NCBI RefSeq assembly: GCF_005871165.1
Contig: NZ_SWKP01000008.1
Location: 124,001 to 188,000 of the forward strand
DNA: 64,000 nucleotides
Origin: Maricaulis alexandrii
GTDB lineage: Bacteria; Pseudomonadota; Alphaproteobacteria; Caulobacterales; Maricaulaceae
Direction of reading: 5' to 3'
Shown: in pieces, positions 11,611 to 60,848 of the stretch
How the letters are laid out: the number at the start of each line of letters is the position of its first letter
How positions within the stretch are numbered: the first letter of the stretch is position 1
Notes under the pieces: model-generated
The model's database searches: none
Told to the model about the DNA's origin: nothing
Seen by the model: only the letters and a program-made list of their open reading frames with translations
Program-made: the position numbers and the translations under genes

Positions 11611-11678
11611 TCCGAAACGACTAAACCGCCATCCCGATCACATGGCGAAGCGCCTCTGACAGAGCCCTCCACGACGCA

Positions 11679-11760
11679 CAGGCGCGCTAACCCGCGGACT
11701 ATCGGGGGTTTCCGGCGGGCGCCGGTGCCATATCCAGATTTGGAGGGAATAATGGCGGTG
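11679..11760 (+). repeat. Left copy of 70-bp direct repeat (candidate att)
   Basis: Positions 11679-11748 are identical to 60684-60753. Similarity continues to 11760/60765 with two mismatches, reaching the 3' end of tRNA-Ser in the right copy (shared ATGGCGGTG). It contains short inverted repeats (CCGGC/GCCGG). It is a candidate left boundary of a ~49-kb island, or a member of a tRNA-associated intergenic repeat family. Confidence 0.6.
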
Positions 11761-12042
11761 GAGGCAGACGGGAGCGAAGTGGTCTCTACCGGTGGGCGTT
11801 TCGAAATTAGCTGTCCCGTTCGGCGTCCGACGCGCGACACCGAATCTCGGCAGGTCTCAGGACGATGCCTCCTGGGGCGACTTGATTGCGCAATCTGTCG
11901 GTTGGTTTGAGCAGATGCCCACGCTGCAACCGGTTGTGCCCACACTCCCACCGCCTGATAGTCTTGTCGGCATATTCGGTTTATCGATGAGGGGGCTGCG
12001 CGCGTGCTGCGTATCGGGTCTGTGTCGATCTGGAGTTTCGAA

Positions 12043-38591: not shown

Positions 38592-38613
38592 CGTACTGCC
38601 TATTATGCGCAGA
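38592..38613 (+). repeat. 22-nt direct repeat, left copy
   Basis: The 22 bases matching CGTACTGCC-t-ATTATGCGCA-g-A recur at 45070-45091 with two mismatches, in the same orientation. The pair brackets the recombinase-ParB-RepB, nuclease and toxin-antitoxin block (6.5 kb) and may mark recombination sites. Confidence 0.5.
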
Positions 38614-38697
38614 TGCTAAAGAGCTTATTCAATCTCCCCGGCGCGTCGTCCATCCCGGTACTATGTGAGCTGCACTCACCAGCATGCTCAGACGCGA

Positions 38698-39072
38698 TCA
38701 GCCAGAATCGCTGTTCGAATTGGTCGACGAAGCTATTGCCTCATCCAGTTGCTGTACCAACGACAATAGCTGCTGCCTCAACCCAGCCCAACGCACGCTA
38801 ACTGCAGCAGCGGGGCGATCTGCAGCCACAAGGATATAGATGAGAATCGCATCGCTATGTTTGGCCAGCGCAATCAAGTGACGGCCGCTCGGCCCATGCG
38901 TGCCTGACAACCAGTGCTTGGCTGAGCGCTCGCTCGCCCCAGTCCAGCTCATCAATGTTTTGATCGCCTGATGCGACGTCCCAAGTTCGCTTCGCAGCGC
39001 CATGGCTATGGTTTGCTCGTATCCACCGGGCCCGCCGCGACCAGGCAATTCATTGCCCATTTTTGGAAACAT
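38698..39072 (-). CDS. Hypothetical HTH-like protein divergent from the recombinase
   Basis: A 124-aa protein whose middle (ALRSELGTSHQAIKTLMSWTGASERSAKHWLSGTHGPSGRHLIALAKHSD) looks like a helix-turn-helix of the XRE/Cro type, with GGGCGGG upstream of the ATG. A second Met at 39060 is possible. It is transcribed away from the serine-recombinase operon, and the 169-bp shared intergenic space is suited to a regulator. I read it as a likely regulator of the recombinase-ParB-RepB operon. The HTH assignment is by pattern only. Confidence 0.55.
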   Translation of the reverse strand: MFPKMGNELPGRGGPGGYEQTIAMALRSELGTSHQAIKTLMSWTGASERSAKHWLSGTHGPSGRHLIALAKHSDAILIYILVAADRPAAAVSVRWAGLRQQLLSLVQQLDEAIASSTNSNSDSG

Positions 39073-39241
39073 GTTGCCCGCCCTTTGCGTCTAACGTGGT
39101 GGCGCCTGTCAGATTTCACCGCCCGACAGGTCGAGCGGGCATTGCTCCGTTGTTCAACATCGTGATTGGCGACTGCGTGACAGGCAGCCTCGCTGAGGAT
39201 CGTGACATCCATCATCGCAACAGACAAAAGGTCGCAAATCT

Positions 39242-40771
39242 ATGGTGAAGGGACTTAAGGCAGCGGAATACGTCCGCATGTCGACCGACCACCAAAGATA
39301 CTCTACCCAGAACCAGTCTGACGCCATCAGACAGTATGCTCACGCACGCTCAATCGAGATCGTGCGAACCTACGCTGACCAAGGCAAAAGCGGACTTAGC
39401 CTGGACGGGCGAGACGCATTGAAACAATTGATTGATGACGTTGAAAACGGTCGCGCAGACTTTGAGACTGTGCTCGTCTATGACGTCAGCCGTTGGGGCC
39501 GGTTCCAGGATGCCGATGAGAGCGCCTACTACGAATACATCTGCAAACGAGCGGGCATCAGCGTGCAGTATTGCGCTGAGCAGTTCGAAAATGACGGAAG
39601 CCCGGTCTCTACGATCGTAAAGGGCGTCAAACGCGCTATGGCAGGAGAGTATAGCCGCGAGCTGTCCTCCAAAGTGTTTGCGGGTCAATGCCGGCTGATT
39701 GAGCTGGGGTATCGCCAAGGCGGCGTAGCTGGGTTTGGCTTTCGAAGAACGCTGGTGGACCAATCGGGCGCGGTGAAAGGGCAACTTCGCACCGGTGAAC
39801 ACAAGAGCATCCAAACAGACCGCGTCGTACTCACTCCCGGGCCAAGCGACGAACTTGAAATCGTCCGAAATATATATCGGCGCTTTGTGCAGGATCAAAA
39901 AAGCGAGCGAGAGATATCTGACGAGCTCAATGAAGCGGGACGATTTCGCGAGAACCAGCAAGCCTGGACACGCGGCACCGTTCACCAAATTCTGATCAAC
40001 GAGAAGTACGCTGGTCACAATGTCTGGAACCGCGTCTCCTTCAAACTCAAGAAGAAACGCGTGCGAAACGATCCCCAAATGTGGGTCCGCGCCGATAGCG
40101 TCTTTCCCGCCATCATTGATCAGGCCACGTACGACGCGGCTCAAACCATCATCCAAGCGCGCAGCTTTCGCATGTCCAACGAAGATATGCTGGACGCGCT
40201 TCGCTCGCTCCGCTTAAGAGAAGGACTGCTTTCAGGTCTGATCATAGACGAAGAAGACGGCATCCCGTCCAGCAGTGCCTACCGATCTCGTTTCGGCAGC
40301 TTGTTGCAAGTCTATCGATTGGTCGGATTCACGCCGCGGCGCGACTATCGATATATCGAGATCAATCGACATCTTCGCACGCTTCATCCGGGCTTGCTCG
40401 ACGAGCTAAAGAGCGGCTTGAAGGCCACTGGAAGCCGCCTTCAAACTGACCCGGATACCCAGCTCATCCATATAAATTCCGAGTTGAGCATATCCGTTGT
40501 GATCGTGCGTTGTCGGCGCACGCAAGGTGGCGCCATGCGCTGGCAACTTCGCTTGGACACCGGTCTACGGCCCGACATCACAGTCGCCATTCGCATGAAC
40601 GCGACCAATCAAGCGCCTCTCGATTTCTACATACTGCCGCGCATCGACATTGCCTCTGCCAGGTTGAGACTAGCAGAGGCCAATGGCTTGGCGCTTGATG
40701 CCTATCGGTTTGACGATTTTGAGGAATTTTTTGAGCTTTTCAGACCGGTCCCAATCTTGGAGGCAGCGTGA
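39242..40771 (+). CDS. Large serine recombinase, first gene of a ParB/RepB trio
   Basis: A 509-aa serine recombinase. The catalytic domain begins AEYVRMSTDHQRYSTQNQ (nucleophile Ser14) and continues with DQGKSGLSLDGRDALKQL and VLVYDVSRWGRFQD (conserved Arg residues). A recombinase domain follows (about 180-300; AGFGFRR, GTVHQILINEKYAG). The C-terminal ~190 residues lack the usual zinc-ribbon/coiled-coil and instead carry GSLLQVYRLVGFTPRRDYRY and a strand-rich tail. The stop overlaps the start of the next gene (TGATG), so recombinase, ParB and RepB form one tightly coupled operon. A link between serine recombination and ParB-type DNA binding is not explained by known phage or IS biology. Confidence 0.85.
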   Translation: MVKGLKAAEYVRMSTDHQRYSTQNQSDAIRQYAHARSIEIVRTYADQGKSGLSLDGRDALKQLIDDVENGRADFETVLVYDVSRWGRFQDADESAYYEYICKRAGISVQYCAEQFENDGSPVSTIVKGVKRAMAGEYSRELSSKVFAGQCRLIELGYRQGGVAGFGFRRTLVDQSGAVKGQLRTGEHKSIQTDRVVLTPGPSDELEIVRNIYRRFVQDQKSEREISDELNEAGRFRENQQAWTRGTVHQILINEKYAGHNVWNRVSFKLKKKRVRNDPQMWVRADSVFPAIIDQATYDAAQTIIQARSFRMSNEDMLDALRSLRLREGLLSGLIIDEEDGIPSSSAYRSRFGSLLQVYRLVGFTPRRDYRYIEINRHLRTLHPGLLDELKSGLKATGSRLQTDPDTQLIHINSELSISVVIVRCRRTQGGAMRWQLRLDTGLRPDITVAIRMNATNQAPLDFYILPRIDIASARLRLAEANGLALDAYRFDDFEEFFELFRPVPILEAA

Positions 40772-41667
40772 TGACTGAACCGTCCGAACGTCAAATCGAG
40801 CTAATTCCGATCAACAGCATTCACGTACTAAACCCTCGGACGCGCAACAAGCGGCTCCACCGGGAAATCGTCGACAACATTGCCGTGGTCGGCCTCAAAC
40901 GCCCCATCACTGTAAGCCGCCGCGTTGGAAGTAGCCCACAAAGTTTCGATTTGGTGTGTGGTGAAGGGCGCTTGGAAGCCTTTCGAATGCTAGGAGAAAC
41001 TGAAATCCCAGCGATGATAATCGACGCGTCGGAAGCCGACTGCTTTGTCATGAGTTTGGTTGAAAACATCGCTCGCCGGCAACACAGACCGATCGACCTG
41101 ATGCACGAGATCGGCAGCCTCAATAAGCGAGGATATTCAGACACCCAGATCGCGCAGAAGATCGGCGTTACGGCTAGCTGGGTCAGCATGATTGTCAGCC
41201 TCCTCGACAAAGGAGAGGAACGGCTAGTGGCCGCTGTTGAATCGGGACTCATGCCAATCAGTTTGGCGGTGGACATTGCACGCGCCGATCACAGCGAAGT
41301 GCAAAATGTGCTGATGGATGCGTACGATGCTGGAAAAATCAAAGGCAAAAAGCTCGCCACTGTTCGGCGCATGCTCGACCAAAGAATGCGCCGCAGCAAG
41401 GTTTTTCGGGAAGGAAAGATGGGGCTGAAAAACTCGTCCCGTCGCCCGACTGCGGCAGATCTGATGCGTCTTTATGAACGGGAAGCGGAAAAGCAGCGGC
41501 TCCTGGTCAAGAAGTCCGACTACACCCAGGCGAAACTACTATTTTTGGTCGAAGCTCTCAAAGAACTCTTTTCCGACGAGGCATTCGCAACCCTTCTTCG
41601 GGCAGAAAGACTTGAGACGATGCCCCGCGCGCTTGCCTCACGGGTTATTGGGGAGATGGTATCATGA
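40771..41667 (+). CDS. ParB/RepB/Spo0J-family protein, no ParA partner
   Basis: A 298-aa ParB-like protein. The N-terminal ParB/Srx-like fold has NPRTRNKRLHREIVDNIAVVGLKRPITV, CGEGRLEAFRMLGETEIPAMII and a GExxR-type box (GEGR), then SLVENIARRQHRPIDLMHEIGSL. A central HTH reads YSDTQIAQKIGVTASWVSMIVSLLDKGEE. The start at 40771 (ATG, with GGAGG seven bases upstream) overlaps the recombinase stop; a GTG lies one codon upstream. No parA is present, which argues against classical plasmid partition. It overlaps the next gene by ATGA. Confidence 0.85.
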   Translation: MTEPSERQIELIPINSIHVLNPRTRNKRLHREIVDNIAVVGLKRPITVSRRVGSSPQSFDLVCGEGRLEAFRMLGETEIPAMIIDASEADCFVMSLVENIARRQHRPIDLMHEIGSLNKRGYSDTQIAQKIGVTASWVSMIVSLLDKGEERLVAAVESGLMPISLAVDIARADHSEVQNVLMDAYDAGKIKGKKLATVRRMLDQRMRRSKVFREGKMGLKNSSRRPTAADLMRLYEREAEKQRLLVKKSDYTQAKLLFLVEALKELFSDEAFATLLRAERLETMPRALASRVIGEMVS

Positions 41668-42593
41668 TCCAACATCCTACCGCGCCGCCGAGCCCCGTAA
41701 AGCTGGCGTTTGAGCGTGAGATGGTTCTCGTCGACTTGGCTGCGGTCATTCCGCTCAAATCACTAAAGCCCGGCGTCAAAGACAGCAAAAAATACGCTCA
41801 AATTCTGTCTTCAGTGCGGACCATCGGCATTGTTGAACCCCCTGTGGTCGTGCCGGAGCCAGGTCGATCTCAACGATATTTCTTGCTTGATGGATTAATG
41901 CGTCTAGAGGCTTTGAAAGATCTGGGCATCACGCGAGTTGAGTGCCTCGTCGCCACAGATGATGAGGCCTACACCTACAACAAACGGGTCAATCGGCTTG
42001 CGGCGGTGCAAGAGCATAAAATGATTGTTCGCGCCGTGGATCGCGGAGTTCCTCCCGAGCGAATTGCCGAAGCGCTTGGATTGGATGTCGTCACAATCCG
42101 CCGCCGCTTTAAGATGCTTGATGGGATTTGCCCCGAGGCCGTAGAGTTACTGAAGGACACGACTTGTCCCCTCGCTGTCTTTGAGATCTTGAGGCACATG
42201 GCACCTATTCGCCAAGTGGAAGCGGCGGATCTGATGATCGGTCAGAACAATTTTTCAACAATGTTTGCCCGGGCTTTGCATGCAGCAACGCCTCCTACAC
42301 AGCTGGTGGATGCCCGGAAACGAAAACCCAAAGGCACTACCGCCGTAACAGCCGAGCAAATTGCCCGCATGGAGCGTGAACTCGCGAGCTTGCAAAGCCG
42401 AGTGAAGCTAGTTGAAGAAAACTACGGGTTGGACAACCTGCATTTGACCGTCGCCAAAGGCTACATATCCAAGCTGCTGAGCAATCCGCGGATTGTCCGA
42501 TGGCTAAGCCAAAACCGCCAAGAGTATGTCGCCGAATTTCAGGGTGTCGCAGAAATTGAAAATCTTGCCCATGACCATGTTGGGGCCGAGTAG
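41664..42593 (+). CDS. Second ParB-like protein with RepB C-terminal domain
   Basis: A 309-aa protein with a ParB-like N-terminal half (LKPGVKDSKKYAQILSSVRTIGIVEPPVVV, LLDGLMRLEALKDLGI) and HTH (VPPERIAEALGLDVVTIRRRFKML). The C-terminal part matches the plasmid RepB C-terminal domain (CPLAVFEILRHMAPIRQVEAADLMI), ending in a coiled helix. Two different ParB-type proteins in series with a recombinase suggest a complex that binds a centromere-like or recombination site. The 4-bp overlap implies equimolar translation. This gene is last in the trio. Confidence 0.85.
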   Translation: MIQHPTAPPSPVKLAFEREMVLVDLAAVIPLKSLKPGVKDSKKYAQILSSVRTIGIVEPPVVVPEPGRSQRYFLLDGLMRLEALKDLGITRVECLVATDDEAYTYNKRVNRLAAVQEHKMIVRAVDRGVPPERIAEALGLDVVTIRRRFKMLDGICPEAVELLKDTTCPLAVFEILRHMAPIRQVEAADLMIGQNNFSTMFARALHAATPPTQLVDARKRKPKGTTAVTAEQIARMERELASLQSRVKLVEENYGLDNLHLTVAKGYISKLLSNPRIVRWLSQNRQEYVAEFQGVAEIENLAHDHVGAE

Positions 42594-42646
42594 CTCCTTC
42601 GTGCAATCAACGATGCCCAAGCTGCCGGCAAATGACCGTTGTTCGA

Positions 42647-42664
42647 TGACCGTGTCCTAGGTCA
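42647..42664 (+). promoter_or_regulatory. Inverted repeat upstream of the nuclease gene
   Basis: TGACC-GTGTCCTA-GGTCA forms an 18-bp dyad 52 bp before the nuclease start codon. It resembles an operator; the cognate factor is not known. Confidence 0.4.
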
Positions 42665-42716
42665 CAGATCCACGCGTATTGTGCTTCTATGATGTTCGGA
42701 CGATCGGGAGACGAGC

Positions 42717-43631
42717 ATGCGATTGATATTTGGATCTTTGTGTTTGCTTTGGACACTAACCAACACCGCATTCGCACAATCTTGCCCAGCGTTGTCTCCC
42801 GCCCAGGCCGCCCATGCGGCCGCGCTGCACTCATTTGCCGGTTTACCGAGCGAGGATTCTATCTTGGTTCGAAGGGGCTATGTGCTCTCGTACGACCATA
42901 CCCATCGCGTTCCGCGTTGGGCCTCATGGCATGCATCCCCTGCCTACCGAGCAGTTCCTGATCGTGACGTATCGCGTTGGGGGCGCTTTCACACAGATCC
43001 GGACATCACCAATCCGGTTGAGGACGATGACTTTGATGGTCTCTTTCGCACCGCAGACAATTTCGCCAGAGGCCACATCGTTCCTTACTACATCTCTGGA
43101 GGAGACAGAGACGGTGATAGCCTGGGGGCGGCTGACGCTGAGGGTGATGAGCTAGTCGACCTGGACGATGCCTGTACAGTCTTTGAGATCATGTACATGT
43201 CCAACATCGCCCCACAATACCACTATCGCTTCAATGGCTCCGGTGGGCTTTGGTATGAACTCGAAACAGCGTTGCGCGATCTGATCGATAGCCAAGACGC
43301 AGAGTTCCATGTGATCGCCGGCACGGTATTTGGTGCCCAGGACGTCCAGTTCGTTGGTCCTGCCAACGATCAAACCATTGGCGTGCCTGACATGTTCTTT
43401 AAGATCGTCGTGACCGACGCGGGCCCCATCGGCTTCCTGTTCACGCACCGGCGTCAGCTCATCCCCGAGGCCTGCCCGCTGGAAGCAGAACTCGTAGACT
43501 GCATCGTTCCTATTTCCGTAATCGAGAACGTGAGCGGGCTGGATTTCTTTTCTAGCCTGGGCCCGACTGAAAGCGGCTTTGAGACGATTGATGGTTTAGC
43601 TGCGTGGCAAACGGTCACAGGAACGCCATGA
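42717..43631 (+). CDS. Secreted DNA/RNA non-specific endonuclease (NucA-like)
   Basis: A 304-aa protein with a signal peptide (MRLIFGSLCLLWTLTNTAFAQ) and the beta-beta-alpha-metal nuclease fold of NucA/EndoG. The catalytic motif is NFARGHIVPYY (RGH in the DRGH position), followed by MYMSNIAPQYHYRFNGSGGLW with the metal-binding Asn. A good ribosome site (GGGAG) precedes the ATG. An acidic, Asp-rich insertion (ITNPVEDDDFDGLFRT, GGDRDGDSLGAADAEGDELVD) is unusual. It lies 123 bp after the RepB gene. It may degrade extracellular DNA or act as a toxin; neither is shown by the sequence. Confidence 0.85.
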   Translation: MRLIFGSLCLLWTLTNTAFAQSCPALSPAQAAHAAALHSFAGLPSEDSILVRRGYVLSYDHTHRVPRWASWHASPAYRAVPDRDVSRWGRFHTDPDITNPVEDDDFDGLFRTADNFARGHIVPYYISGGDRDGDSLGAADAEGDELVDLDDACTVFEIMYMSNIAPQYHYRFNGSGGLWYELETALRDLIDSQDAEFHVIAGTVFGAQDVQFVGPANDQTIGVPDMFFKIVVTDAGPIGFLFTHRRQLIPEACPLEAELVDCIVPISVIENVSGLDFFSSLGPTESGFETIDGLAAWQTVTGTP

Positions 43632-43765
43632 ACGGGTACGAGAAATACTCGCGCGACTATGGGGGCCCGCCTCCGGGGTGGGGCGACCGTGTTTTGACAG
43701 TCATTCTGTTACTTCTAGCCATCGCAATTGTTGGATACGCTGTTTGGCGCTCATTTGGCGCCTAG
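43628..43765 (+). CDS. 45-aa single-pass membrane protein
   Basis: A short ORF overlapping the nuclease stop by ATGA: MNGYEKYSRDYGGPPPGWGD followed by one transmembrane helix (about residues 22-40) and WRSFGA. The 4-bp overlap and clear helix suggest a real, co-translated protein. It could anchor or regulate the nuclease, for example as an immunity protein, but no family is recognised. Confidence 0.6.
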   Translation: MNGYEKYSRDYGGPPPGWGDRVLTVILLLLAIAIVGYAVWRSFGA

Positions 43766-43943
43766 GTGGTTTGCCGGTGGTTGAGGGCCGTAGTTCGCCT
43801 GCAGCGCCCATTCGTTTCAAATGCATGCTTTGGCTCGATCTAAATCGTTCCGAAATTTCGTTCCAGTTTTCGGCACTACGAAAAACTCTCGCGAATTTGG
43901 AGCGCTCCGCGCATTGCGGATTTGTGAGTTGAATTAATCCCCA

Positions 43944-43979
43944 TTTCGCTTATTTCGTTTATTGCGTTAAATTCGTTTA
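43944..43979 (+). repeat. Four tandem 9-bp repeats upstream of the toxin-antitoxin pair
   Basis: TTTCGCTTA, TTTCGTTTA, TTGCGTTAA and ATTCGTTTA are arranged head to tail at 43944-43979, ending 26 bp before the antitoxin ATG. They are AT-rich compared with their surroundings and look like an iteron-type operator for the adjacent DNA-binding antitoxin. Confidence 0.6.
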
Positions 43980-44005
43980 GACGCATTCCAAGGATGGGTG
44001 AGATT

Positions 44006-44470
44006 ATGAGTGCTGCACACCAACTCGATTTTTCAGACCGCATGCCGGATGAAATCGATAGTCGCGCTGCCAACGACCTTCGCACGATCATCGCCAGCCT
44101 GACTAAAGACGATCAACCGACCGAGCTCAAACTAGCCCTTGGTAAAGGCAAGATCGCCGATGTCATTCTAACGCCGGCGCTAACCCAAACACTTCTCGAC
44201 GTATTGCGTCTTGTCGGGGCCGGTCGGGGCTTCCAGGTCATTCCAGTGGAAGCTTCACTAACGACCCAACAGGCCGCAGATCTCCTCAATGTCTCGCGCC
44301 CGTATCTCGTAGGATTGCTCGATAAAGCGGAAATCCCCTTCCACAAAGTAGGGCGCCACCGCCGCATCCGCGCTGAGGATCTATTTGCTTATCGGCACAA
44401 GCGCGATGAAAAGCGCGCATCTGCGCTTTCCGCTCTGGCCGAAGACGACGCGAAGCTCGACCTTATATGA
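44006..44470 (+). CDS. Excisionase-like HTH antitoxin
   Basis: A 154-aa protein. The start at 44006 follows GGGTGAG; an upstream ATG at 43994 is less well placed. The C-terminal half has the MerR/excisionase-type HTH (LTTQQAADLLNVSRPYLVGLLDKAEIPFHKVGRHRRIRAEDLFAYRHKRDE), typical of the DNA-binding antitoxins paired with PIN-domain toxins. The N-terminal part would bind the toxin. It overlaps the PIN gene by ATGA, and four 9-bp tandem repeats upstream may be its operator. Confidence 0.8.
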   Translation: MSAAHQLDFSDRMPDEIDSRAANDLRTIIASLTKDDQPTELKLALGKGKIADVILTPALTQTLLDVLRLVGAGRGFQVIPVEASLTTQQAADLLNVSRPYLVGLLDKAEIPFHKVGRHRRIRAEDLFAYRHKRDEKRASALSALAEDDAKLDLI

Positions 44471-45042
44471 GTGAACGCGCCGATCGATTTACGGTCGTCC
44501 TCGACGCAAATGTTCTCGCAACCGGATTGGGGCGGAACATGCTTCTCTCGCTCGCAGAAGCCGGCTTGTTCCGCCCGCGTTGGACGGCCGACATTCTGGA
44601 TGAGACCGAGGGCGCGATCCGCAAAATCATCAAAGATCCGGAGAAAGCGAAAACACAGCGCCAACGCATTGACGAGGCCTTCCCGGAAGCCTGCATCAAT
44701 GGGCATGAGATATTTGTGGATGGCCTTAAGCTCAAAGACCCGGATGATCGACATGTCGTAGCTGCCGCGATCCGAACGCGTGCCGCCATCATCGTGACCG
44801 AAAACCTCAAGGACTTTGACCCGGAGGTCCTTGAAGCGTTGGATATTCAGTGCCTGAGCTTGGACGATTTTGTCGCTGACTTAATAGACTTGGCCGGCCC
44901 GGAAGCCATCGAAGCCCTTAGAGTAATGCGCAAGCGCTTCAAGAATCCCGAAACCACGGCCGAAGCCTTAATTCGTCGCATAGAAGCCAAAGGGTACGTT
45001 CAAACGGCAAGCTTGTTGGAACGCTTCGCGAGTCTACTCTGA
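44467..45042 (+). CDS. PIN-domain toxin (VapC-like ribonuclease)
   Basis: A 191-aa PIN-fold protein. The first acidic residue is in FTVVLDANVLATGLG, the later ones in VDGLKLKDPDDRHVVAAAIRTRAAIIVTENLKDFDPEVL, giving the four acidic metal ligands of PIN ribonucleases. It is longer than VapC (about 130 aa), matching the PIN family paired with excisionase-like antitoxins. The 4-bp overlap with the preceding HTH gene supports a type II toxin-antitoxin operon. The RNA target is unknown. Confidence 0.82.
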   Translation: MSERADRFTVVLDANVLATGLGRNMLLSLAEAGLFRPRWTADILDETEGAIRKIIKDPEKAKTQRQRIDEAFPEACINGHEIFVDGLKLKDPDDRHVVAAAIRTRAAIIVTENLKDFDPEVLEALDIQCLSLDDFVADLIDLAGPEAIEALRVMRKRFKNPETTAEALIRRIEAKGYVQTASLLERFASLL

Positions 45043-45069
45043 GAGCCAGGATCCAAGTTCCGAATAGCG

Positions 45070-45091
45070 CGTACTGCCAATTATGCGCAAA
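45070..45091 (+). repeat. 22-nt direct repeat, right copy
   Basis: Twenty of 22 bases match the copy at 38592-38613. It lies 28 bp after the PIN-toxin stop in the convergent gap before the AAA_13 ATPase gene. Confidence 0.5.
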
Positions 45092-45171: not shown

Positions 45172-47460
45172 TCAAGCTTGGAGCGCGTTGACGATCTTCA
45201 GCGTTCGGCGCACATAGCCGGTTAGTTCCGTAGTATCGATCTCATCCGGCGAGCCATCGGCCACATCTTCGCCGTGGTAATACCGGCTGGTATAGTCGTT
45301 GATCTGGTCGATTTCGTCATAAAGCGCGCTGGCCGGATGTTCTTCCCCGCCTTCCCTGATCTTCCGCGCGATTTCGCCCAGCCAATCCTGGCCCGCAGAA
45401 AATGATGCGGGATAAGTGGTCCAACAGTGCGTTTCCAGCACGCCCCGCATCTTGCGGATCAGATCGATGCGATTTCCCGCGCCAGTCGACATGAAGTCCT
45501 GCAGGTCATCGATATCCGTGGCCGTCCGGCCTTGGCACGCCCGCTCAAGATCAATGGCCGTTATCTTCGAACCCTGCGCGCGATGATCGGCCAGCGTAAG
45601 CGCGATGCGCTCGGCCGCAGGCGCCTTGTCCCATACTTGCTTCAAGAACGTCGCGTCGTGGGAAAGCACGATGACTTGCGCGCAGCGCCTGGCGACCTTG
45701 ACGATTTCATAAACCGTCTGGCGCCGCCGGAAGGCGTCTTGGCTGCTGAACGGGTCATCGAAGACGACGATCTTGTTCGCGATATCCGGGTCCTGTTCCA
45801 GATGGGCTAGGAAGAAGGCCAGCGCCAACGTCGTCCGATCGCCGGCGCTGAGCGTATTCTTGAAGCTGGGGCGATCAGCCGGCGTCCGGCCGTCGCCCAG
45901 ATCGATGGGGGTATTGTTGATGACTAGCTGGTAGCTTGAGGCCGCTGTACCGCCCGGGTATGCATGCTTCGTTTCCGCAATCGAAAAGCCGGCGTTGAAG
46001 GCCGCCAGGTAATGGTTGATGCGGTTTTGATACGGTCGCAAGACGGCCGCCGTATGCCGATCCAATTCGGCGCGCGCGGCTTCCTTCCGCTGATCGATAT
46101 CATCCTTTTCCCCCTTCAGCCGAACATGATCCGCGCACAGGCCGGCAACCGGTTCCGAATGGCGAGTTCGGATCGCCCGCCGCAATTCCAGTTCCGCTTC
46201 GGCGGCATTTACATCAGCGGCGCCGGTCTCATGTTTCTTCGCCGCGATCAGGGCGTTCGCTTCGCGTACCGCCAAGGCGATGATTTCGGCCGTCTCCCGC
46301 GCGGCCTCCCACGCCGCCTGCGCGGCCCGGAATGCTTCATCGGGCTCGATCCTATCCAGTGGCGCCACGGCTTTGCGCGCCAACAGCGCACTTGCCGCCC
46401 CACCCATCGCGCGCATCGCATCAGTGATTTCTGCCGGCAGGGCCAGCGTTGGCGCATCGATGCCGCAGTACCGGGCCCAGAATTCGGCCGATCCGGCGTC
46501 CTGTTCCCGGCTGGTGTTCAGCGCGCCAACGGCCCCATTCCCGAACCGTTCATCGATCTGTTCGGCCATGGCCGATATCGCGGCGCGGAGATCCGCGTAG
46601 CGTTCGCTGAAGACCGACCGGTAGGCCGCGATCAGGGGCAGGCCCTCGATCCCCTGACCGCAAAATGGGCATGTCTCATCCGCATGCGGCAAGCCCTCCG
46701 CGATCCAGTTCCCCCCGCCATCTGTCATCGCATGCGCCGCCAGATGTTCAGCAATCCGGGCTTCTGCATCGGCCGCTACATCGTCCAGCGTTCGGCCAAG
46801 GATTTCGAGGAAGCCTTCCGGCAGTTCCGGAAGGGCCACTTCGGCCAGTGCCGCGCGATCGTTGATCTGGCGCGCCTGGCGAACTGCCTCAACATTGCGC
46901 TCCTGTTCTTCGATGCGCCGATCGACTTCCGGATCGGCCGTCAGGGCGATGAATTGATCCAAGTTCATGCCCTGCGGTAGATGTGGCTGGATGGCCCTTG
47001 CCGCCGCGGTGATCTCACCGGTCTTTTCTCGACTTGCCGTCGCCAGTTGCGAATCCGCTACGGCTAGGCCTACGCCTTCTTCGCCGATGATGACGCGGTA
47101 CAGGTTGCGGCGGTGTTCGATATCGACCACTTCGCCGGAATGCACATTTTCGGCAACGAACACGCCATCGAAGATGGCCAGGCCGGGGCATGTCGCGTTC
47201 CAGGCTTCGCCGTTGAAGCGCGACATGCCCGCTGCCATCAGCAATTCGATACCGATCGGAGCTTCAACGCCCAGGGTCTTTCGGCCCGCTACATGGGCGG
47301 CTTCCCCAGTCTTCAAAGACCGAAGGATCGCACAGATAGTCGTCTTGCCGAAGCCGTTCCCGCCAGCGATCAATGTATACCGAGATAAATCTGGATTGCC
47401 TGGGGCGGCCGAATTGATGAACCGGCCTACGTTTTTGATTGTAACGATTTTCCGCAGCAT
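45172..47460 (-). CDS. AAA_13/Rad50-like ATPase with zinc-hook motif (RloC-like)
   Basis: A ~762-aa ABC-type ATPase of the AAA_13 family. Walker A is IAGGNGFGKTTICAIL near the N-terminus. A central coiled coil is interrupted by CPFCGQGIEG, a candidate zinc hook. Near the C-terminus are an ABC signature (FKNTLSAGDRTTLALAFFLA) and Walker B (KIVVFDDPFSSQDAF). The tail after about residue 650 is helical with RGVLETHCW and DYTSRYYHGED, possibly a HEPN-like RNase remnant as in RloC/PrrC. Stand-alone AAA_13 proteins occur in defence islands, and RloC cuts tRNA after phage infection. The ATG at 47460 has a GAGAG site; a TTG lies five codons upstream. Its neighbours (PIN, YobI, TIR) also look like conflict genes. 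Confidence 0.82.
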   Translation of the reverse strand: MLRKIVTIKNVGRFINSAAPGNPDLSRYTLIAGGNGFGKTTICAILRSLKTGEAAHVAGRKTLGVEAPIGIELLMAAGMSRFNGEAWNATCPGLAIFDGVFVAENVHSGEVVDIEHRRNLYRVIIGEEGVGLAVADSQLATASREKTGEITAAARAIQPHLPQGMNLDQFIALTADPEVDRRIEEQERNVEAVRQARQINDRAALAEVALPELPEGFLEILGRTLDDVAADAEARIAEHLAAHAMTDGGGNWIAEGLPHADETCPFCGQGIEGLPLIAAYRSVFSERYADLRAAISAMAEQIDERFGNGAVGALNTSREQDAGSAEFWARYCGIDAPTLALPAEITDAMRAMGGAASALLARKAVAPLDRIEPDEAFRAAQAAWEAARETAEIIALAVREANALIAAKKHETGAADVNAAEAELELRRAIRTRHSEPVAGLCADHVRLKGEKDDIDQRKEAARAELDRHTAAVLRPYQNRINHYLAAFNAGFSIAETKHAYPGGTAASSYQLVINNTPIDLGDGRTPADRPSFKNTLSAGDRTTLALAFFLAHLEQDPDIANKIVVFDDPFSSQDAFRRRQTVYEIVKVARRCAQVIVLSHDATFLKQVWDKAPAAERIALTLADHRAQGSKITAIDLERACQGRTATDIDDLQDFMSTGAGNRIDLIRKMRGVLETHCWTTYPASFSAGQDWLGEIARKIREGGEEHPASALYDEIDQINDYTSRYYHGEDVADGSPDEIDTTELTGYVRRTLKIVNALQA

Positions 47461-47484
47461 CACTGCATCTCTCAATGGGTACCT

Positions 47485-50900: not shown

Positions 50901-51603
50901 CCGCCAGTTCCTGATCAATGCCGAGGAATTCGAGGATAGGGTGTATGGCGCTTACATCCGGGCGCTACCCGAGAAATTCAAGAAATTTCCCGAATCCATA
51001 GGTGCCGGCAAGCTCCTGATACTTATCGATGAGCGGCGTGTCACGTTCGATGCCAGTAACTTGGCAGCACTCGACGGTGAAGTCGATCTTCAAACCGCAT
51101 TCGTCTCCCGGAACATCGCCTCCTATCTTGGCGACCCCACCTCTTTCTCGATCGACGATGACTTCCACGAGCGATTGCTCGGCACCGATATCTCAGACGA
51201 ACACAAACGTGCGATCATCGGTTTGATGGACTTGAACGGTCTTTACAACCTTCCAGAGCGCGCCGGCATTATTGGGCCAATCCTGTTGCGTACAAATGGC
51301 GCGCTGTCTTCACTCACGCCTGATATCGTCAAGGCAGTTGTCGTGAACGCTAAGCCAGTCGCCACACAGGTCCAGTTGCTCAACCAACTTCACGAAACAC
51401 TCGACATGATCGAGGTTCGTCAGGTTCTGGGGCAGCTTCCTTATCCATACTCGAAAATCCAAACCGGATATGCTCGCCCGAGGTTAAAAAGGACGATTGA
51501 AAATAGCGAGCTGGTCAGATGGTTGGATGAGCGAGACATCATCTCTTCGGTGGGGAAGTCGTCTTGGTCGAACGATATAGTGGTTAATCTATATCGATCT
51601 TAG
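47983..51603 (+). CDS. YobI-type membrane-inserted P-loop NTPase
   Basis: A 1206-aa protein. Walker A is ALTGPYGSGKSSIIRSF (about residues 68-84) and Walker B is RYDLVVVEDLDRFEDSNIF (about 260-280). Two transmembrane helices (about 155-180 and 190-215) are inserted inside the NTPase domain, as in YobI and KAP-type P-loop ATPases. A coiled coil follows (ALEQNHRSEIAALERDIAAADQQIAKDL), and the C-terminal ~800 residues are mostly helical with no recognised domain. Proteins of this type are predicted conflict/defence sensors held at the inner membrane. The gene stands alone between the AAA_13 and TIR genes, with short gaps on both sides. Confidence 0.7.
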   Translation: MNTILTRTGLWISDKLSKIAQELRVRSVSRVERAKFVDLAPTDTADQGGVYSAALKFATDNPDVSNIALTGPYGSGKSSIIRSFLKSYPRHALHISLAAFLPETGDEGRTVPRQEITKQQIERSILQQLLYGADAKKLPLSRFKRIQSPGYWGTFRSLYILAGLLAFGLVFQSRAAIFDGSYFEPFDFTNWLDIFVVAFALIFLWSAIHHLYVASFGMSLKSISLKDIEIRPSSDDQDSILNRHLDEIVYFFQRTRYDLVVVEDLDRFEDSNIFVTLREINSLVNGNVGVRRRVRFLYALRDDMFVNTDRTKFFEFIIPVIPIINSSNSIDMVLAQGKRLELDGRLDQQFLREVSRHLSDLRLIHNIFNEYAIYVANLETDGENVLDATKLLAVLIYKNVYPRDFERLHRGEGQLAGILGRKDELIAALEQNHRSEIAALERDIAAADQQIAKDLRELRRIYAMALLETLPANVAALSQNGQAFVAPAQLSEQEDFEHFVTTPTMHFHRFNGGRQRQDNAAFQDSVDPKASYAERVQSIEHKEDAYKKAAQRRIAHLRGEIKTIRTSKFNVLLRSSPQEIESLFENLGGGGELARFLLLEGHLDDSYYQYTSLFHAGRLSPNDNKFLIQIRAFQTPDPLFPIDNPSEVIAGMREEDFGLDYALNIRLVDALLESGEHNERLRKVFAYLSNEFPNQQEFFEAYYMTGSRVGEFLRQLVDAWRGFVPMAIVGSFAVLHIARLIEHLPSAMLARERKEHPELRTFAADNLLDILGLLEGVDPAKFDELQIETKDLAAINGFPNVVRRLYELGYYRLNKANFSYIVGSILGEETGPTFRKRHYSRVRSSRAEPLLDRVESDFAAYFKNVLLEMDDNDEEDVDAILAVMSHDELDAEEIETFVLRQTELLPTLEDVPERFQTTVVREAKMAPTWPNCLAYVQSETFESDALITFLDDEEVRTALLETPIPATKEALPLRQFLINAEEFEDRVYGAYIRALPEKFKKFPESIGAGKLLILIDERRVTFDASNLAALDGEVDLQTAFVSRNIASYLGDPTSFSIDDDFHERLLGTDISDEHKRAIIGLMDLNGLYNLPERAGIIGPILLRTNGALSSLTPDIVKAVVVNAKPVATQVQLLNQLHETLDMIEVRQVLGQLPYPYSKIQTGYARPRLKRTIENSELVRWLDERDIISSVGKSSWSNDIVVNLYRS

Positions 51604-54636: not shown

Positions 54637-54940
54637 GCGATTTTGCAACTGGACAGTTCCAATTTTGCGCCGAAACCCCTATAATAATTGACGTCTGAGA
54701 CACCAAACTGACCCAAGCGTGATGCGACAGGTCGTGGAAGGTCCCGGGGATTTTGAGCGGACATGGCGCTGCTCCCCCAACGTCGCTGACGCGCTCTCGC
54801 GACATGGTGCGCGATGATCGTCGAACGACACTCCGATGACATGGGTCTGCGGAGCTTTCACCCCAAATTTTCATCTTATCCGGCGCCGCGCACGGACTCC
54901 TTTCTCATGCGCGCTGCCGCCGGCCTTTGGAGATAGACCT
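54637..54940 (+). other. Gap of ~300 bp upstream of the methyltransferase
   Basis: No gene is supported. A possible promoter is TTCCAA (54657-54662), 17-bp spacer, TATAAT (54680-54685). The -10 is good but the -35 is poor, so this is tentative. Confidence 0.35.
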
Positions 54941-57753: not shown

Positions 57754-58257
57754 ATGTCCAAACTCACACCCACCCACCTTGCCATCCTCAAGTCCCTCGG
57801 CGCCCAGGACGGCCCCACGCCCGTCGATCAGCTCTCCGGTCTGCCGGCCTCGGGCGCCGCTCTGGTCGCGCATCTCGATCACCTCGCCAGCCGCGGACTT
57901 CTCACGCGGACAGGCAAAGCCATCGCTCTCACCGAGGTGGGTCAGGCCGCCCTCTCTGAAGCGCCGACGAAGGCCACCGGGACGGCGAAGAGCAAGCCCG
58001 GCTCCGTGCCAGCGCCAGAGCCTGAGCCCTCGGAAGCAAAGCCCGACGGACCGACGACCAAAAAGGCCCGCCTGATCGCGCTCCTGACCGCCGAGAAGGG
58101 CGTCACCGTGCCTGATCTGGCAGCGGCGCTCGAATGGCTGCCCCATACCACACGGGCCGCCCTGACGGGCCTCAAGAAGGCCGGCTACACGATCGACAAA
58201 CTTCCCCCGCCCGAAGGCAGCCGGTCCTCGCGTTACAAACTCGTCGAGGCGGCCTGA
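57754..58257 (+). CDS. DUF3489 domain protein
   Basis: A 167-aa protein. The ATG at 57754 has AGGAG nine bases upstream. The C-terminal DUF3489 domain reads KKARLIALLTAEKGVTVPDLAAALEWLPHTTRAALTGLKKAGYTIDK. The N-terminal ~65 aa (LTPTHLAILKSLGAQDGPTPVDQL) is a second winged-helix-like unit, joined by a Pro/Glu-rich linker. DUF3489 genes are found next to DUF2924 and serine-recombinase genes in Alphaproteobacteria. It may be a directionality or DNA-binding factor. Confidence 0.78.
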   Translation: MSKLTPTHLAILKSLGAQDGPTPVDQLSGLPASGAALVAHLDHLASRGLLTRTGKAIALTEVGQAALSEAPTKATGTAKSKPGSVPAPEPEPSEAKPDGPTTKKARLIALLTAEKGVTVPDLAAALEWLPHTTRAALTGLKKAGYTIDKLPPPEGSRSSRYKLVEAA

Positions 58258-58694
58258 TGGCGCGGCGCAAACGCTCGGTCGAGATTGATCTCGATCGCCT
58301 GGTTGAACGACCGCGGGATGAGCTGGTGGCGATCTGGCTGGCCAGCTTTGCCACCAAACCGCCGCGTGGATCGAGCCAGGCGTTTCTGGCCCGTCTTCTG
58401 GCCTACGACCTTCAGGTCGAGGCCAGGGGCGGGCTTGGCCCGCGCCTGGAAAAACGCCTGCTTTCGCTTGCCGCCGGTGAGACACCCAAGCCCGCGGCCC
58501 CCAAACTCAAACCCGGCGCGCAGCTGATGCGCACCTGGAATGGAATCACGCACCGCGTCGATGTCGTTGAAGAAGGCTATCGCTACCGCGACGAGACCTT
58601 CACCTCGCTGTCCGCCATCGCCAAGGCGATCACGGGCACGCACTGGTCAGGCCCACGCTTCTTCGGGCTCGTCTCGCGCAAGAAGGCCGCGTGA
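58257..58694 (+). CDS. DUF2924 domain protein
   Basis: A 145-aa basic protein with the DUF2924 pattern: DRLVERPRDELVAIWLASFATKPPRGSSQAFLARLLAYDLQVEARGGL, then LKPGAQLMRTWNGITHRVDVVEEGYRYRDETFTSLSAIAKAITGTHWSGPRFFGL. It probably binds DNA. Starts overlap the neighbours by one base on each side (TGATG junctions), so the DUF3489, DUF2924 and recombinase genes form one coupled operon. Confidence 0.85.
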   Translation: MARRKRSVEIDLDRLVERPRDELVAIWLASFATKPPRGSSQAFLARLLAYDLQVEARGGLGPRLEKRLLSLAAGETPKPAAPKLKPGAQLMRTWNGITHRVDVVEEGYRYRDETFTSLSAIAKAITGTHWSGPRFFGLVSRKKAA

Positions 58695-60442
58695 TGGACC
58701 GAGCCCCGGGAAACGCCCGCCGCACCATCCGCTGCGCGATCTATACCCGCAAGTCCTCCGAGGAGGGACTGGACCAGGAGTTCAACTCGCTGGACGCCCA
58801 GTTCGAGGCTTGCGCGGCCTATATCGCCAGTCAGAAAGCTGAGGGCTGGAAGCTATTGCCCGAGCGCTATGATGATGGTGGCATTTCCGGCGGCACGCTG
58901 GAGCGCCCCGCCATCCAGCGTCTCATGGCCGATATCGATGGCGGTCGGGTCGATATGATCGTCGTCTACAAGATCGACCGGCTGACCCGTTCGCTGGCGG
59001 ATTTTTCCCGGTTGATCGACCGGCTGGATGCGGCGGACTGTTCCTTCGTTTCGGTCACCCAGGCCTTCAACACCTCAACCTCGATGGGCCGGCTGACGCT
59101 GAACGTTCTGCTTTCCTTTGCCCAGTTCGAGCGGGAGGTCACATCCGAGCGCATCCGCGACAAGATCGCGGCCTCCAAGAAGAAGGGCATGTGGATGGGC
59201 GGCATGGTGCCCACCGGCTATGACGTCGATCCCGACCCCAATGCCAGAGGCCTGATCGTCAACGCCGGTGAGGCAGACAATGTCCGCACCCTGTTCGCGC
59301 TCTATGACGAACATGAATGTCTTTCCACCGTCGCGGCCCAGGCCGAGGCTCAAGGAATCCGTTCGAAGCATCGAACCTTCGCCTCGGGCAAGCAGTATGG
59401 CGGGGCCGTTCTGTCCCATGGCGCGATCCACAATATCCTGACCAACCCGATCTATGTCGGCCGCATCCGTCACAAGCTGGAGACCTATGACGGCCAGCAC
59501 GAGGCCATCATCGCTGAAGATCTCTGGGCCCGTGTACAGGACAAACTCCAGGCCCAAGCTGCCCGACCGCGCGTACGAGATCCCGCCACCAAAGCGCTCA
59601 AACAACCCGATCAGAAATCACCGCTCGCCGGAAAGCTCTTTGATGAGACGGGTGATCGCCTGACGCCCAGCCATTCGCGGCGCAAGACGGAAAACGGTCA
59701 CAAGCGCATCCGATATTATGTCTCACGGCGGCTGATGAAGGGCGCGGCAGACGATCCCTCCGGTTGGCGCCTGCCGGCCCTCAAACTGGAGCGGGCCGTT
59801 TGTGGTGCGATCGTCAGTCACCTCGACGGGGTCGGTGAGCAGCTTTTCTGCGAACCCGATCCCATCGCGATTTACAGGGCGCAGGACGCGCTCGGTCGGG
59901 TAAAGACCCGACTGGATGCGCGCGACGGGGAGACGCTGCGCGTGATCACCCAGACGGTCCGCGTGTCGCCGAACCGGCTTCGCATCGACCTCGACCGTGC
60001 GGGGCTGGCGGAAGCACTGGACATCGACCCGAGCGCACTCGCCGAGGATCAGCTCACCATCGAGACCGGGTTTGAGCTGCGCCGGCGCGGTGTTGAGATC
60101 AAGATCATCACCGGCCAGTTCGAACGGGCCCCGGACCAAACCCTGATCAATGCCATCGCGAAGGCCCACCAATGGCTCGCCGAAGCTCGCCGCGGCGTCT
60201 CTCTGGCCGCCATCGGTCGACGCTATGGCTGGACCGATAGTCCTATCCGCCAGCGCATCCGCCTGGCCTTCCTGTCGCCCGACATCACCGCGGCGATCCT
60301 TGACGGGCGCCAGCCGCCAGAGCTGACCTTGCAGCATCTTCTCACCCACCCCATTCCTCTGGACTGGGATGCACAGGCGCGGGTGTTGGGGTTTTCCGAA
60401 ATCGGCCGAACAGAGCCTGTTTTGGTCCAAAACAGGGCCTGA
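58694..60442 (+). CDS. Large serine recombinase (integrase-type)
   Basis: A 582-aa serine recombinase. The N-terminal catalytic domain has CAIYTRKSSEEGLDQEFNSL (nucleophile Ser21) and VYKIDRLTRSLADFSRL; a recombinase domain follows (about 170-280; VPTGYDVDPDP, NILTNPIYVGRI), and a zinc-ribbon/coiled-coil region lies about 285-370. The C-terminal third has an HTH-like unit (VSLAAIGRRYGWTDSPIRQRIRL). A GTG lies one codon upstream of the chosen ATG. Its proximity to the tRNA-Ser gene and the long direct repeat fits an integrase of the surrounding island. This cassette type is widespread but has not been functionally characterised as far as I know. Confidence 0.88.
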   Translation: MDRAPGNARRTIRCAIYTRKSSEEGLDQEFNSLDAQFEACAAYIASQKAEGWKLLPERYDDGGISGGTLERPAIQRLMADIDGGRVDMIVVYKIDRLTRSLADFSRLIDRLDAADCSFVSVTQAFNTSTSMGRLTLNVLLSFAQFEREVTSERIRDKIAASKKKGMWMGGMVPTGYDVDPDPNARGLIVNAGEADNVRTLFALYDEHECLSTVAAQAEAQGIRSKHRTFASGKQYGGAVLSHGAIHNILTNPIYVGRIRHKLETYDGQHEAIIAEDLWARVQDKLQAQAARPRVRDPATKALKQPDQKSPLAGKLFDETGDRLTPSHSRRKTENGHKRIRYYVSRRLMKGAADDPSGWRLPALKLERAVCGAIVSHLDGVGEQLFCEPDPIAIYRAQDALGRVKTRLDARDGETLRVITQTVRVSPNRLRIDLDRAGLAEALDIDPSALAEDQLTIETGFELRRRGVEIKIITGQFERAPDQTLINAIAKAHQWLAEARRGVSLAAIGRRYGWTDSPIRQRIRLAFLSPDITAAILDGRQPPELTLQHLLTHPIPLDWDAQARVLGFSEIGRTEPVLVQNRA

Positions 60443-60757
60443 TACTTGCTCGAACAGGGAATAAAGTTTCCCTGTTCGGGGTTTAGGGAAACCCATATAA
60501 CTCATTGATTATATTAACGACACAGGATCGTCCGATCCGGCGTTCGCTGTTGTTCTCGCAAAAATCCCTGTTTTTGGGGCCAGAGCAGGCAAATCCGCTA
60601 CCCGATCTGCCCGAACTGGGCCCGCGAGACCTCAGGGGAATTTTAGCCCAGATACGCCCGATCCCGAAGCTCTCTAAGGCGCGCAGGCGCGCTAACCCGC
60701 GGACTATCGGGGGTTTCCGGCGGGCGCCGGTGCCATATCCAGATTTGGAGGGATAAA
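60443..60757. other. Recombinase-tRNA gap: hairpin and direct repeat
   Basis: No gene is supported. It holds a 10-bp perfect hairpin just after the recombinase stop (CGAACAGGGA 60451-60460 / TCCCTGTTCG 60469-60478), possibly a weak terminator, and the right copy of the 70-bp repeat (60684-60753) next to the tRNA 3' end. Confidence 0.6.
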
Positions 60758-60765
60758 TGGCGGTG
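60684..60765 (+). repeat. Right copy of 70-bp direct repeat (candidate att)
   Basis: Positions 60684-60753 are identical to 11679-11748. The copy continues into the 3' end of the tRNA-Ser gene (positions to 60765, two mismatches to the left copy), i.e. the place where islands commonly insert. Confidence 0.6.
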
Positions 60766-60848
60766 AGGGTGGGATTCGAACCCACGAGACGGGGACACCG
60801 CCTACACGCGTTCCAGGCGTGCGCCTTCGACCACTCGGCCACCTCACC
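60758..60848 (-). tRNA. tRNA-Ser (anticodon GGA), CCA encoded
   Basis: The minus strand gives a 91-nt tRNA: acceptor GGTGAGG/CCTCACC, D arm TGGCCGAGTGG, anticodon stem CACGC/GCGTG with loop CTGGAAC (anticodon GGA), the long variable arm typical of tRNA-Ser, T loop TTCGAATC, discriminator G and encoded CCA. Confidence 0.95.

Follow-up and report, generated by a model that had tools for sequence, protein, structure and literature searches.

A serine recombinase gene conserved beside two ParB-like genes in bacterial islands, plasmids and prophage contigs

Introduction

What might a large serine recombinase do when it is encoded in one overlapping unit with two ParB-like proteins? The locus that raises this question lies in a 64,000-nucleotide stretch of a Maricaulis alexandrii contig (NZ_SWKP01000008.1), the whole of which is called the window here. 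A sequence-only reading had proposed that the three genes form a linked, operon-like unit without a ParA partner, in a non-plasmid context, in which the ParB pair might direct or regulate recombination, or that they are an autonomous mobile or phase-switching element. The features at the core of the locus are as follows.

38698..39072, minus strand: candidate regulator, a small HTH-like gene of 124 aa that is divergent from REC
39242..40771, plus strand: REC, serine recombinase, 509 aa, Resolvase and Recombinase domains
40768..41667, plus strand: PB1, 299 aa, GTG start, ParB_N and RepB domains
41664..42593, plus strand: PB2, 309 aa, divergent ParB-like protein with a RepB domain
42594..42716, no strand: position of the R1 element in relatives, empty in the window (cmsearch negative)

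Domain content of the trio

The REC/PB1 and PB1/PB2 reading frames of the window overlap by 4 bp each. REC matches the Resolvase (PF00239, 6.5e-24) and Recombinase (PF07508, 1.8e-21) families and no further Pfam family at E<=0.1, zinc-ribbon families included. Its S14 is invariant across 26 alignment rows, and its profile matches TP901-1, TnpX and YokA chains.

The sequence-only reading had assigned a RepB domain to the second ParB-like protein. PB2 indeed carries one (PF07506, 7.3e-49), but so does PB1 (1.1e-29), which also has a ParB_N domain (8.1e-9); the ParB_N match of PB2 is weak (0.0048) and under Pfam's cut-off. By alignment, PB1 retains GLKRPITV, CGxGRLEA and ENxARR, which we take to be the three ParB nucleotide motifs, and its profile matches Spo0J, Noc and KorB structure chains. 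With all three motif regions in place, PB1 is predicted to be a ParB-type CTPase. The prediction does not extend to PB2, in which YNKR.NRL replaces the third motif region.

ParA families are absent among the 27 window proteins scanned (none of them left of 26 kb), as the sequence-only reading had stated. Nor is the unit a repABC backbone: PB1 and PB2 score 34.8 and 18.5 bits against the repABC RepB model TIGR03454 (cut-off 201.5), and theirs are the only two occurrences of PF07506 in their own genome.

The divergent HTH gene, which the earlier reading had not included, has no Pfam match at E<=0.1. In 35 of 61 loci, tblastn places its relatives upstream of REC and on the opposite strand. The gap between the two genes (39073-39241) holds only an imperfect dyad in the window, and several relatives also have dyads there.

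Conservation and spread

The order REC-PB1-PB2 is kept on a single strand in 56 of 61 loci, distant genomes among them (L063-L123, chosen for matching PB2 or REC, with L112 a duplicate of L080), so the linkage is not due to chance and the three overlapping genes are a real operon-like unit. The five loci without the full order (L071, L084, L090, L091 and L094) are fragments or contig edges. Among 50 copies with all three reading frames called, the REC-PB1 junction is -4 or -1 in 42; outlying values of -4211, -262 and -83 stem from start choice or tandem copies. Evolutionary distances agree as well, with r of 0.91 between PB1 and PB2 and 0.65-0.70 between REC and each of them, against a permutation maximum of 0.25. 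The trio occurs in tandem in L114, L118 and L120, and strong repeats between these copies were not found.

Relatives of PB2 are present on 99 plasmid records (conjugative by typing in 68) and in only 1 of 50,697 annotated phage records. The non-plasmid context is thus a feature of the window that the family as a whole does not share. The trio is a conserved gene set of bacterial islands, plasmids and prophage contigs: its genes are consistently adjacent and its ParB genes are not always repABC, the opposite of the two outcomes set in advance as grounds for giving up a linked system. No description of the trio or of R1 turned up in the literature searched, and the passages of PMC12839542 on ParB and related terms do not deal with this unit.

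A structured element downstream of PB2

Many copies of the trio are followed by a structured element of ~130 nt, R1, which is a further addition to the earlier reading. Of 71 relative loci, 36 have it 3' of PB2 by covariance-model search (E<=4.4e-22), and 26 of these were themselves rows of the model; the best hit on 28 control stretches is E=2. Compensated base-pair cells number 72, compared with 21.4 in shuffles, and 0 of 500 shuffles reach 72. Both sides have changed in 15 of 31 pairs. Across 385 genomes of the class, 17 copies occur in 14 genomes, all of them 3' of PB2 or a PB2 remnant: 13 of these genomes have PB2, and the 14th has a remnant 43 bp upstream of R1. Rfam 15 gives no gathering-level match in the R1 regions of four loci and no match at E<=1 in L101 10850-11300, making R1 an unlisted structured element as far as these regions go.

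Folding of four single R1 copies is no better than that of shuffles (z of +1.68, -0.65, +0.29 and -1.19). One frame of R1 is open in many copies, though a 1-nt gap interrupts L065 and L075. A transcript of R1, if there is one, would run from the 3' end of PB2 to the GGCACGCCC hairpin. The last hairpin of R1 has a long variable loop.

R1 is missing from about half of the loci, a few of which stop just after PB2. The window belongs to this half, with no match at E<=10 over its whole length, and its nearest relative carries R1. The element is therefore not essential to every copy. Conversely, at least four viral contigs have R1 without the trio.

The surrounding island

On a larger scale, the window trio lies within a 49-kb island.

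11675..11761, plus strand: left 86-bp island repeat, 96.5% identical to about 60680-60766
58134..58694, plus strand: DUF2924 gene of the likely integrase module of the island (PF11149, 1.7e-38)
58691..60442, plus strand: second large serine recombinase (PF00239 and PF07508), 316 bp from the tRNA-Ser gene
60680..60766, plus strand: right 86-bp island repeat, which overlaps tRNA-Ser(GGA) at its 3' end
60758-60848, minus strand: tRNA-Ser(GGA)

The recombinase at 58691-60442 is likely the integrase of this island. What stands of the proposed autonomous element is the linked unit; the window trio itself sits inside an island whose likely integrase is a different serine recombinase, and across the genomes of the class the trio is statistically associated with the DUF2924 gene that accompanies this integrase. 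Matches to DUF2924 occur in 12 of 23 genomes with PB2, compared with 58 of 385 class genomes (Fisher 1.7e-5), and in 9 of the 12 the gene lies 2.5-30 kb from the trio on the same contig. The remaining 11 PB2 genomes have no match, and none was found in the seven plasmid stretches searched. DUF2924 and the integrase are found, with the same polarity, at the far ends of all four viral contigs chosen from 16.

The integrase is matched in eight loci. In five of them (L070, L074, L076, L078 and L089) it shares the strand of the trio and lies to its right; in L077 it comes immediately after PB2 but on the opposite strand, and in L069 it lies left of the trio. L102 has only a weak partial match. The integrase is 175-362 bp from a tRNA gene in L076, L078, L089 and the window, and of 10 cases of whole right-flank tRNAs, the window included, 9 are oriented towards the trio (exception L116). 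Left of the HTH gene, truncated tRNA 3' ends are present in L067, L076, L080/L112, L111 and L113, where ARAGORN finds no whole tRNA (L112 was outside the run), and a split tRNA is visible by eye in L064. The left break of L101-L104 carries the tRNA-Ser-end-like TGGCGGAG. A tRNA 3' end was rejected as the target of REC because the tRNA repeat of the window is 27 kb from REC, on its left, and goes with the second recombinase, the likely island integrase.

Flanks and cargo

Closer to the trio, the window copy is bounded by two short repeats that enclose further genes.

38592..38611, plus strand: left 20-bp dif-like repeat, where the alignment with congener G388 ends
42717..43631, plus strand: DNA/RNA non-specific endonuclease, cargo (PF01223, 1.8e-27)
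43994..44470, plus strand: excisionase-type HTH protein, cargo (PF12728, TIGR01764)
44467..45042, plus strand: PIN-domain protein, cargo (PF13470)
45070..45089, plus strand: right 20-bp dif-like repeat, 19/20 identical to the left one

The HTH and PIN genes are probably an antitoxin and toxin pair. One arm, TTATGCGC, is common to both repeats and the likely dif site of the genus; the other arm is partial. The two repeats are placed as attL and attR around a single site in the congener. The same 17-mer is exact in G386, G388 and G393, with differing flanks. In G388 an HNH gene follows the single site, so this genome does not offer a clean empty site. As an att site of the trio itself the 20-bp motif was rejected: no such pair occurs at other trio loci within 4 mismatches, where dif-like sites (score 14 or more) number 190, compared with 213 per shuffle. 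The repeats are dif-like rather than trio-specific, a point absent from the earlier reading.

Related locus pairs have little in common beyond the four genes and R1, after which they diverge. L133 and L134 share relative positions -803 to +3391; between PB2 and a region in common with L134, L133 contains 4.4 kb that include a UvrD gene, and L134 has about 55 bp in their place. L080 and L113 share -2162 to +3434, stopping at the end of R1, and L068 and L069 are 99.8% alike upstream and lose similarity at +3467, inside R1. Homologous recombination could also produce such sharp breaks. A scan of neighbouring genes (92 of 179 listed ORFs, mostly the nearest on each side) finds 121 Pfam families, of which 108 occur in one member only, and UvrD is the commonest with five members; the output of a PADLOC scan was swamped by UvrD/GajB models.

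Clear direct repeats surround the module in only 2 of the 30 R1 loci tested. The left copy in L127 belongs with ars cargo, and the 44-bp repeats of L067 (-748 and +3610) lie tightly around the module. Ends common to all copies were rejected, left-versus-right direct-repeat searches having yielded no shared motif.

Possible functions of the module

Several readings compete to explain these observations. PB1 and PB2 might be centromere-type binders that, with REC as a multimer resolvase, keep plasmids or excised islands, using a host ParA or none. The many plasmid records, most of them conjugative, and the structural matches of PB1 favor such a maintenance role. It is nevertheless improbable, given the lack of ParA among the window proteins scanned, the presence of the trio on chromosomal contigs, the differences in adjoining DNA between near-identical copies, and REC domains typical of large recombinases rather than small resolvases. 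We also consider it unlikely that the trio, lying across attP from the DUF2924-linked integrase in a circular form, sets excision or its direction. The linkage within 30 kb, the short integrase-to-tRNA distances and the opposite ends occupied in the four checked viral contigs would fit this, but 11 PB2 genomes and seven plasmid stretches are without a DUF2924 match, L077 and L069 break the polarity, and a catalytic recombinase would be an odd direction factor.

That the four genes and R1 form a small autonomous mobile element is quite unlikely. The conserved block does coincide with the module in several locus pairs, tandem copies exist, and L067 has its tight repeats; against this, copies share no common ends, strong repeats are confined to two of the 30 R1 loci tested, and none was found between the tandem copies. 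A further reading is compatible with the others and concerns the window alone: there, the chances are about even that the trio is mere cargo of a Xer-dependent dif module. The shared arm, the attL/attR placement and the 17-mer in different flanks argue for it, whereas the lack of such pairs at other trio loci and the HNH gene after the G388 site argue against it.

We favor, with a probability of roughly 0.35, a reading in which the HTH gene, REC, PB1 and PB2, plus R1 where it survives, constitute a conserved accessory recombination or nucleoprotein module of mobile elements, the hosts being best read as serine-integrase islands, prophages and some plasmids. Gene linkage, R1 with its covariation, the variable neighbours and the statistical tie to DUF2924 are the observed basis of this reading. 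Weighing against it are the scarcity of clear direct repeats around the module, the copies without R1, the R1 copies without a trio, the single phage record, the uneven polarity relative to the integrase and the unremarkable folding of single R1 sequences. Its action, including all binding, catalysis and any role of R1, is what we infer as follows. PB1, a putative ParB-type nucleotide-switch clamp, and its degenerate paralogue PB2 would load beside the module, and their nucleoprotein complex would supply REC with site choice and synapsis, making up for a zinc-ribbon and coiled-coil region, which seems to be missing from REC. As a transcript of the operon's 3' end, or as a folded DNA site, R1 would serve as a cofactor or boundary mark. 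REC would then recombine DNA adjoining R1, leading to exchange of cargo beside the module, and another recombinase would insert the whole element into the chromosome. The window copy, having no R1, may work poorly or rely on other elements. In the data analysed, neither a product of recombination nor a site of binding nor a transcript was seen for the trio.

A more specific version, in which structured RNA R1 held by the ParB-type clamp pair directs site choice and allows RNA-assisted cargo exchange at island or prophage ends, is very unlikely; to our knowledge, it would resemble no known serine recombinase system. In this version the long variable loop of the last R1 hairpin would be the candidate for pairing with target DNA. 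The trio ties a recombinase to a partition-type protein pair and, in about half of the copies, to an unlisted structured element, and it is widespread and linked to a common, DUF2924-associated integrase family. It therefore offers a direct route to ask whether ParB-type clamps or RNA steer serine recombination, with R1 as a potential marker of element boundaries.

Comparison with known systems

REC shares its Resolvase and Recombinase domains with large serine recombinases such as SCCmec Ccr, TP901-1, TnpX and SPbeta YokA, and differs from them in having no zinc-ribbon match and in its operon with two ParB-like proteins. It is distant from SCCmec CcrB (55.3 bits, cut-off 900). PB1 keeps three motif regions like the nucleotide-switch proteins ParB, Noc and KorB; unlike them, it has a degenerate paralogue and a recombinase as its partners, and no adjoining ParA was found. 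Among the 27 window proteins scanned, the trio lacks the ParA beside ParB that marks ParABS partition. With repABC RepB, PB1 and PB2 have PF07506 in common, and both fall far under the TIGR03454 cut-off.

GMT trio islands likewise combine a recombinase with conserved partners, although the recombinase or partner families differ; the literature searched yielded no paper with GmtY or GmtZ. IS607 and IS110 RNA-linked elements are similar in that an RNA lies at an end of the mobile element, and their recombinase or partner families are likewise different. In the parts of the source consulted, Acinetobacter pdif modules are accessory genes between dif-like sites (PMC6449649). The window segment is similar to these modules in having genes between dif-like sites, and it differs from the plasmid-borne Acinetobacter examples in lying on a chromosomal contig of an alphaproteobacterial genus, where use by Xer is putative.

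Conserved gene order of the trio

A serine recombinase (REC) and two ParB-like proteins (PB1 and PB2) make up the trio. A small divergent HTH-like ORF is counted as a fourth member of the set, since its relatives sit on the opposite strand upstream of REC in 35 of 61 loci.

38698-39072, minus strand: small HTH-like ORF, divergent from REC
39242-40771, plus strand: REC, serine recombinase
40768-41667, plus strand: PB1, ParB-like protein
41664-42593, plus strand: PB2, ParB-like protein

The positions that the sequence-only reading gave the three ORFs are correct, and each neighboring pair overlaps by 4 bp. Both core large-serine-recombinase domains are present in REC (Pfam). The RepB domain (PF07506) assigned to the second ParB-like protein is indeed found in PB2, but PB1 carries it too, together with a clear ParB_N domain. 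Regions GLKRPITV, CGxGRLEA, and ENxARR, presumably the ParB nucleotide motifs, are highly conserved across 27 aligned PB1 rows, and a YNKR.NRL-type sequence stands in place of the third in the PB2 alignment (28 rows).

The suggestion that the three genes form a linked set was borne out: REC, PB1, and PB2 follow one another in this order on one strand in 56 of the 61 loci (L063-L123, picked for a PB2 or REC match; L112 duplicates L080), and the other five are fragments or contig edges. Protein distances over 49 loci plus the window correlate at 0.91 for PB1-PB2, 0.70 for REC-PB1, and 0.65 for REC-PB2, against a permutation maximum of 0.25. Host labels span Alpha- and Betaproteobacteria, plus metagenome-assembled genomes labeled Acidobacteria, Fuerstiella (Planctomycetota), and Desulfovibrionaceae, for which contamination is possible. 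Of 385 class genomes, 23 have PB2, the window's own among them; it also occurs on 99 plasmid records and 1 of 50,697 phage records. Strong REC matches (58-62%) occur in 5 of 60 other near relatives, all five with adjacent PB1 and PB2, and in none of 18 congeners; two more matches are weak (26-29%).

Tandem double trios are found on Paraburkholderia/Burkholderia contigs L114, L118, and L120, the last also with a third recombinase. Sinorhizobium meliloti pSymA replicons (L129-L131 and other matches) each have PB2 relatives at one to four sites, and many of these are split into two or three pieces, as though broken.

A structured element downstream of PB2

R1, an element of about 130 nt, was first noticed as a common stretch in the DNA directly 3' of PB2 when several relatives were compared. 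It starts -2 to 72 nt past the PB2 stop (25 loci measured), and nhmmer detects it once per locus in 33 of 65 sequences, a set of 64 loci and the window in which duplicates and near-identical plasmids were kept. A covariance model recovers R1 from 36 of the 71 relative loci, all at E ≤ 4.4e-22. Of these 36, 26 are the model's own rows; among the 71 are three pSymA loci and plasmids that are nearly identical. The next-best match has E = 0.33, the best of 28 control stretches reaches E = 2, and the same search of the window returned no R1.

In an alignment of 26 distinct rows, 96.6% of cells are paired, both sides have changed in 15 of 31 pairs, and compensated cells number 72 versus 21.4 in shuffles. 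The structure had been drawn from a nearly identical alignment, which makes this test somewhat favorable to it. A one-base shift of the pairing makes it collapse. However, individual copies give folds no better than those of shuffled sequences, which counts against structure. The covariation would fit an RNA or a folded DNA site alike and cannot tell them apart. By a permissive script test, 19 of 27 loci have a further hairpin after R1, its stem of the GGGCGTGCC type and its loop variable.

Under strict filters, the 385 class genomes hold 17 R1 copies in 14 genomes, and a PB2 gene or fragment directly precedes every copy (17/17). Thirteen of these genomes have PB2, and the fourteenth (G093) has a PB2 remnant just upstream of R1. 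In a 50-row tree of PB2, where 26 rows have R1, the element appears in both halves and its label requires 11 changes, seven or more of them on starred branches; L087 and L092, scored as lacking it, lie on contigs that stop 100-123 bp past PB2. The window's sister on this tree, Phyllobacterium L093, has R1, and the element was likely lost in the window's lineage. At L071, L084, L090, L091, and L257, trios are decayed or cut, and the 3' part of PB2 stands together with R1.

Searching viral contigs for an exact R1 core pattern gave 16 contigs. PB2 lies in the fetched piece of ten and is absent from that of six, two of which (L264, L272) end at R1; 7 of the 16 whole contigs have a REC match. Six viral contigs share a gene that lies 61-409 bp from R1 and has a weak pectate-lyase-like match under Pfam's cut-off; one of the six (L266) also has the trio. 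Of the 13 contigs that exceed 30 kb, 12 have R1 within 7 kb of an end. Far ends were fetched for four viral contigs, all with the R1-adjoining gene, and in all four, DUF2924 and an integrase match lie no more than about 5 kb from that end, in the same polarity.

dif-like repeats around the trio segment

Two 20-bp repeats, differing at one position, bound the window's trio segment (38592-45089), which also encodes an endonuclease and what is probably a toxin pair. A congener, G388, has a single copy of the 20-bp site at the equivalent place, and each of its flanks, left and right, resembles the flank on the matching side in the window; an HNH gene follows the site. The exact 17-mer of the repeats also occurs in G386, G388, and G393, and at up to one mismatch in 8 of 137 family genomes.

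The repeats have TTATGCGC in common with a genus site, CTCATAATATT[T/C/G]ATTATGCGC, which among the matches listed occurs in 11 of 14 congener or own genomes; G388 and G395 have close variants of it, and G396 (65% complete) has none. This genus site is probably dif. Two dif-like sites lie in the same orientation around 4433 and 10647 of L208 (G395:C40), 6.2 kb apart, and from this pair dif modules may be common in the genus.

Genomic context and working model

The trio lies within a 49-kb island of the window.

about 11675-11761 and 60680-60766: 86-bp repeat, 96.5% identity, bracketing the island
58134-58694, plus strand: DUF2924 gene
58691-60442: second large serine recombinase, after DUF3489 and DUF2924 genes and beside tRNA-Ser(GGA)

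Adjoining the trio segment are an AAA_13 ATPase (45172-47475), a YobI-like ATPase (47983-51603), and a TIR-domain gene (51924-52883), possibly a defense cluster. A DNA methylase fused with a ParB_N-like stretch (54836-56338) is followed by a DUF5681 gene, with relatives close to several trios.

Both flanks of the unit are variable: 92 of 179 nearby ORFs, scanned with Pfam, gave 121 families, 108 in a single member. Alignments between related copies break near the unit ends or within R1 in several pairs, and the L101/L102 and L103/L104 pairs stay alike several kb further on the right. The variable flanks and these breaks lead us to favor a module that would exchange or fix cargo beside itself, with PB1 and PB2 as its putative nucleoprotein scaffold and R1 as a possible cofactor or boundary. 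A maintenance module is a close rival to this cargo reading. So is control of the DUF2924-linked integrase by the trio. DUF2924 occurs in 58 of 385 class genomes versus 12 of the 23 PB2-bearing ones (Fisher 1.7e-5, or 5.9e-5 with the own genome removed, both uncorrected for genome size and phylogeny), and 9 of the 12 co-occurring genomes have DUF2924 and PB2 on a single contig, separated by 2.5-30 kb. Where loci have an integrase match, it lies to the right of the trio and in the trio's orientation in the window and five others; L077, L069, and L102 (a weak match) are exceptions. Left of the HTH-like ORF in L064 (relative position about -1050 to -700), a tRNA-like gene appears by eye to be split by about 190 bp, resembling the insertion of a group I intron.

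Comparison with known systems

A literature search found no description of the trio or R1, and Rfam 15 gave no match over the R1 regions searched; the combination and R1 appear to be new. The trio's component families are known: TP901-1, TnpX, and YokA chains match the REC profile, and Spo0J, Noc, and KorB chains match that of PB1.
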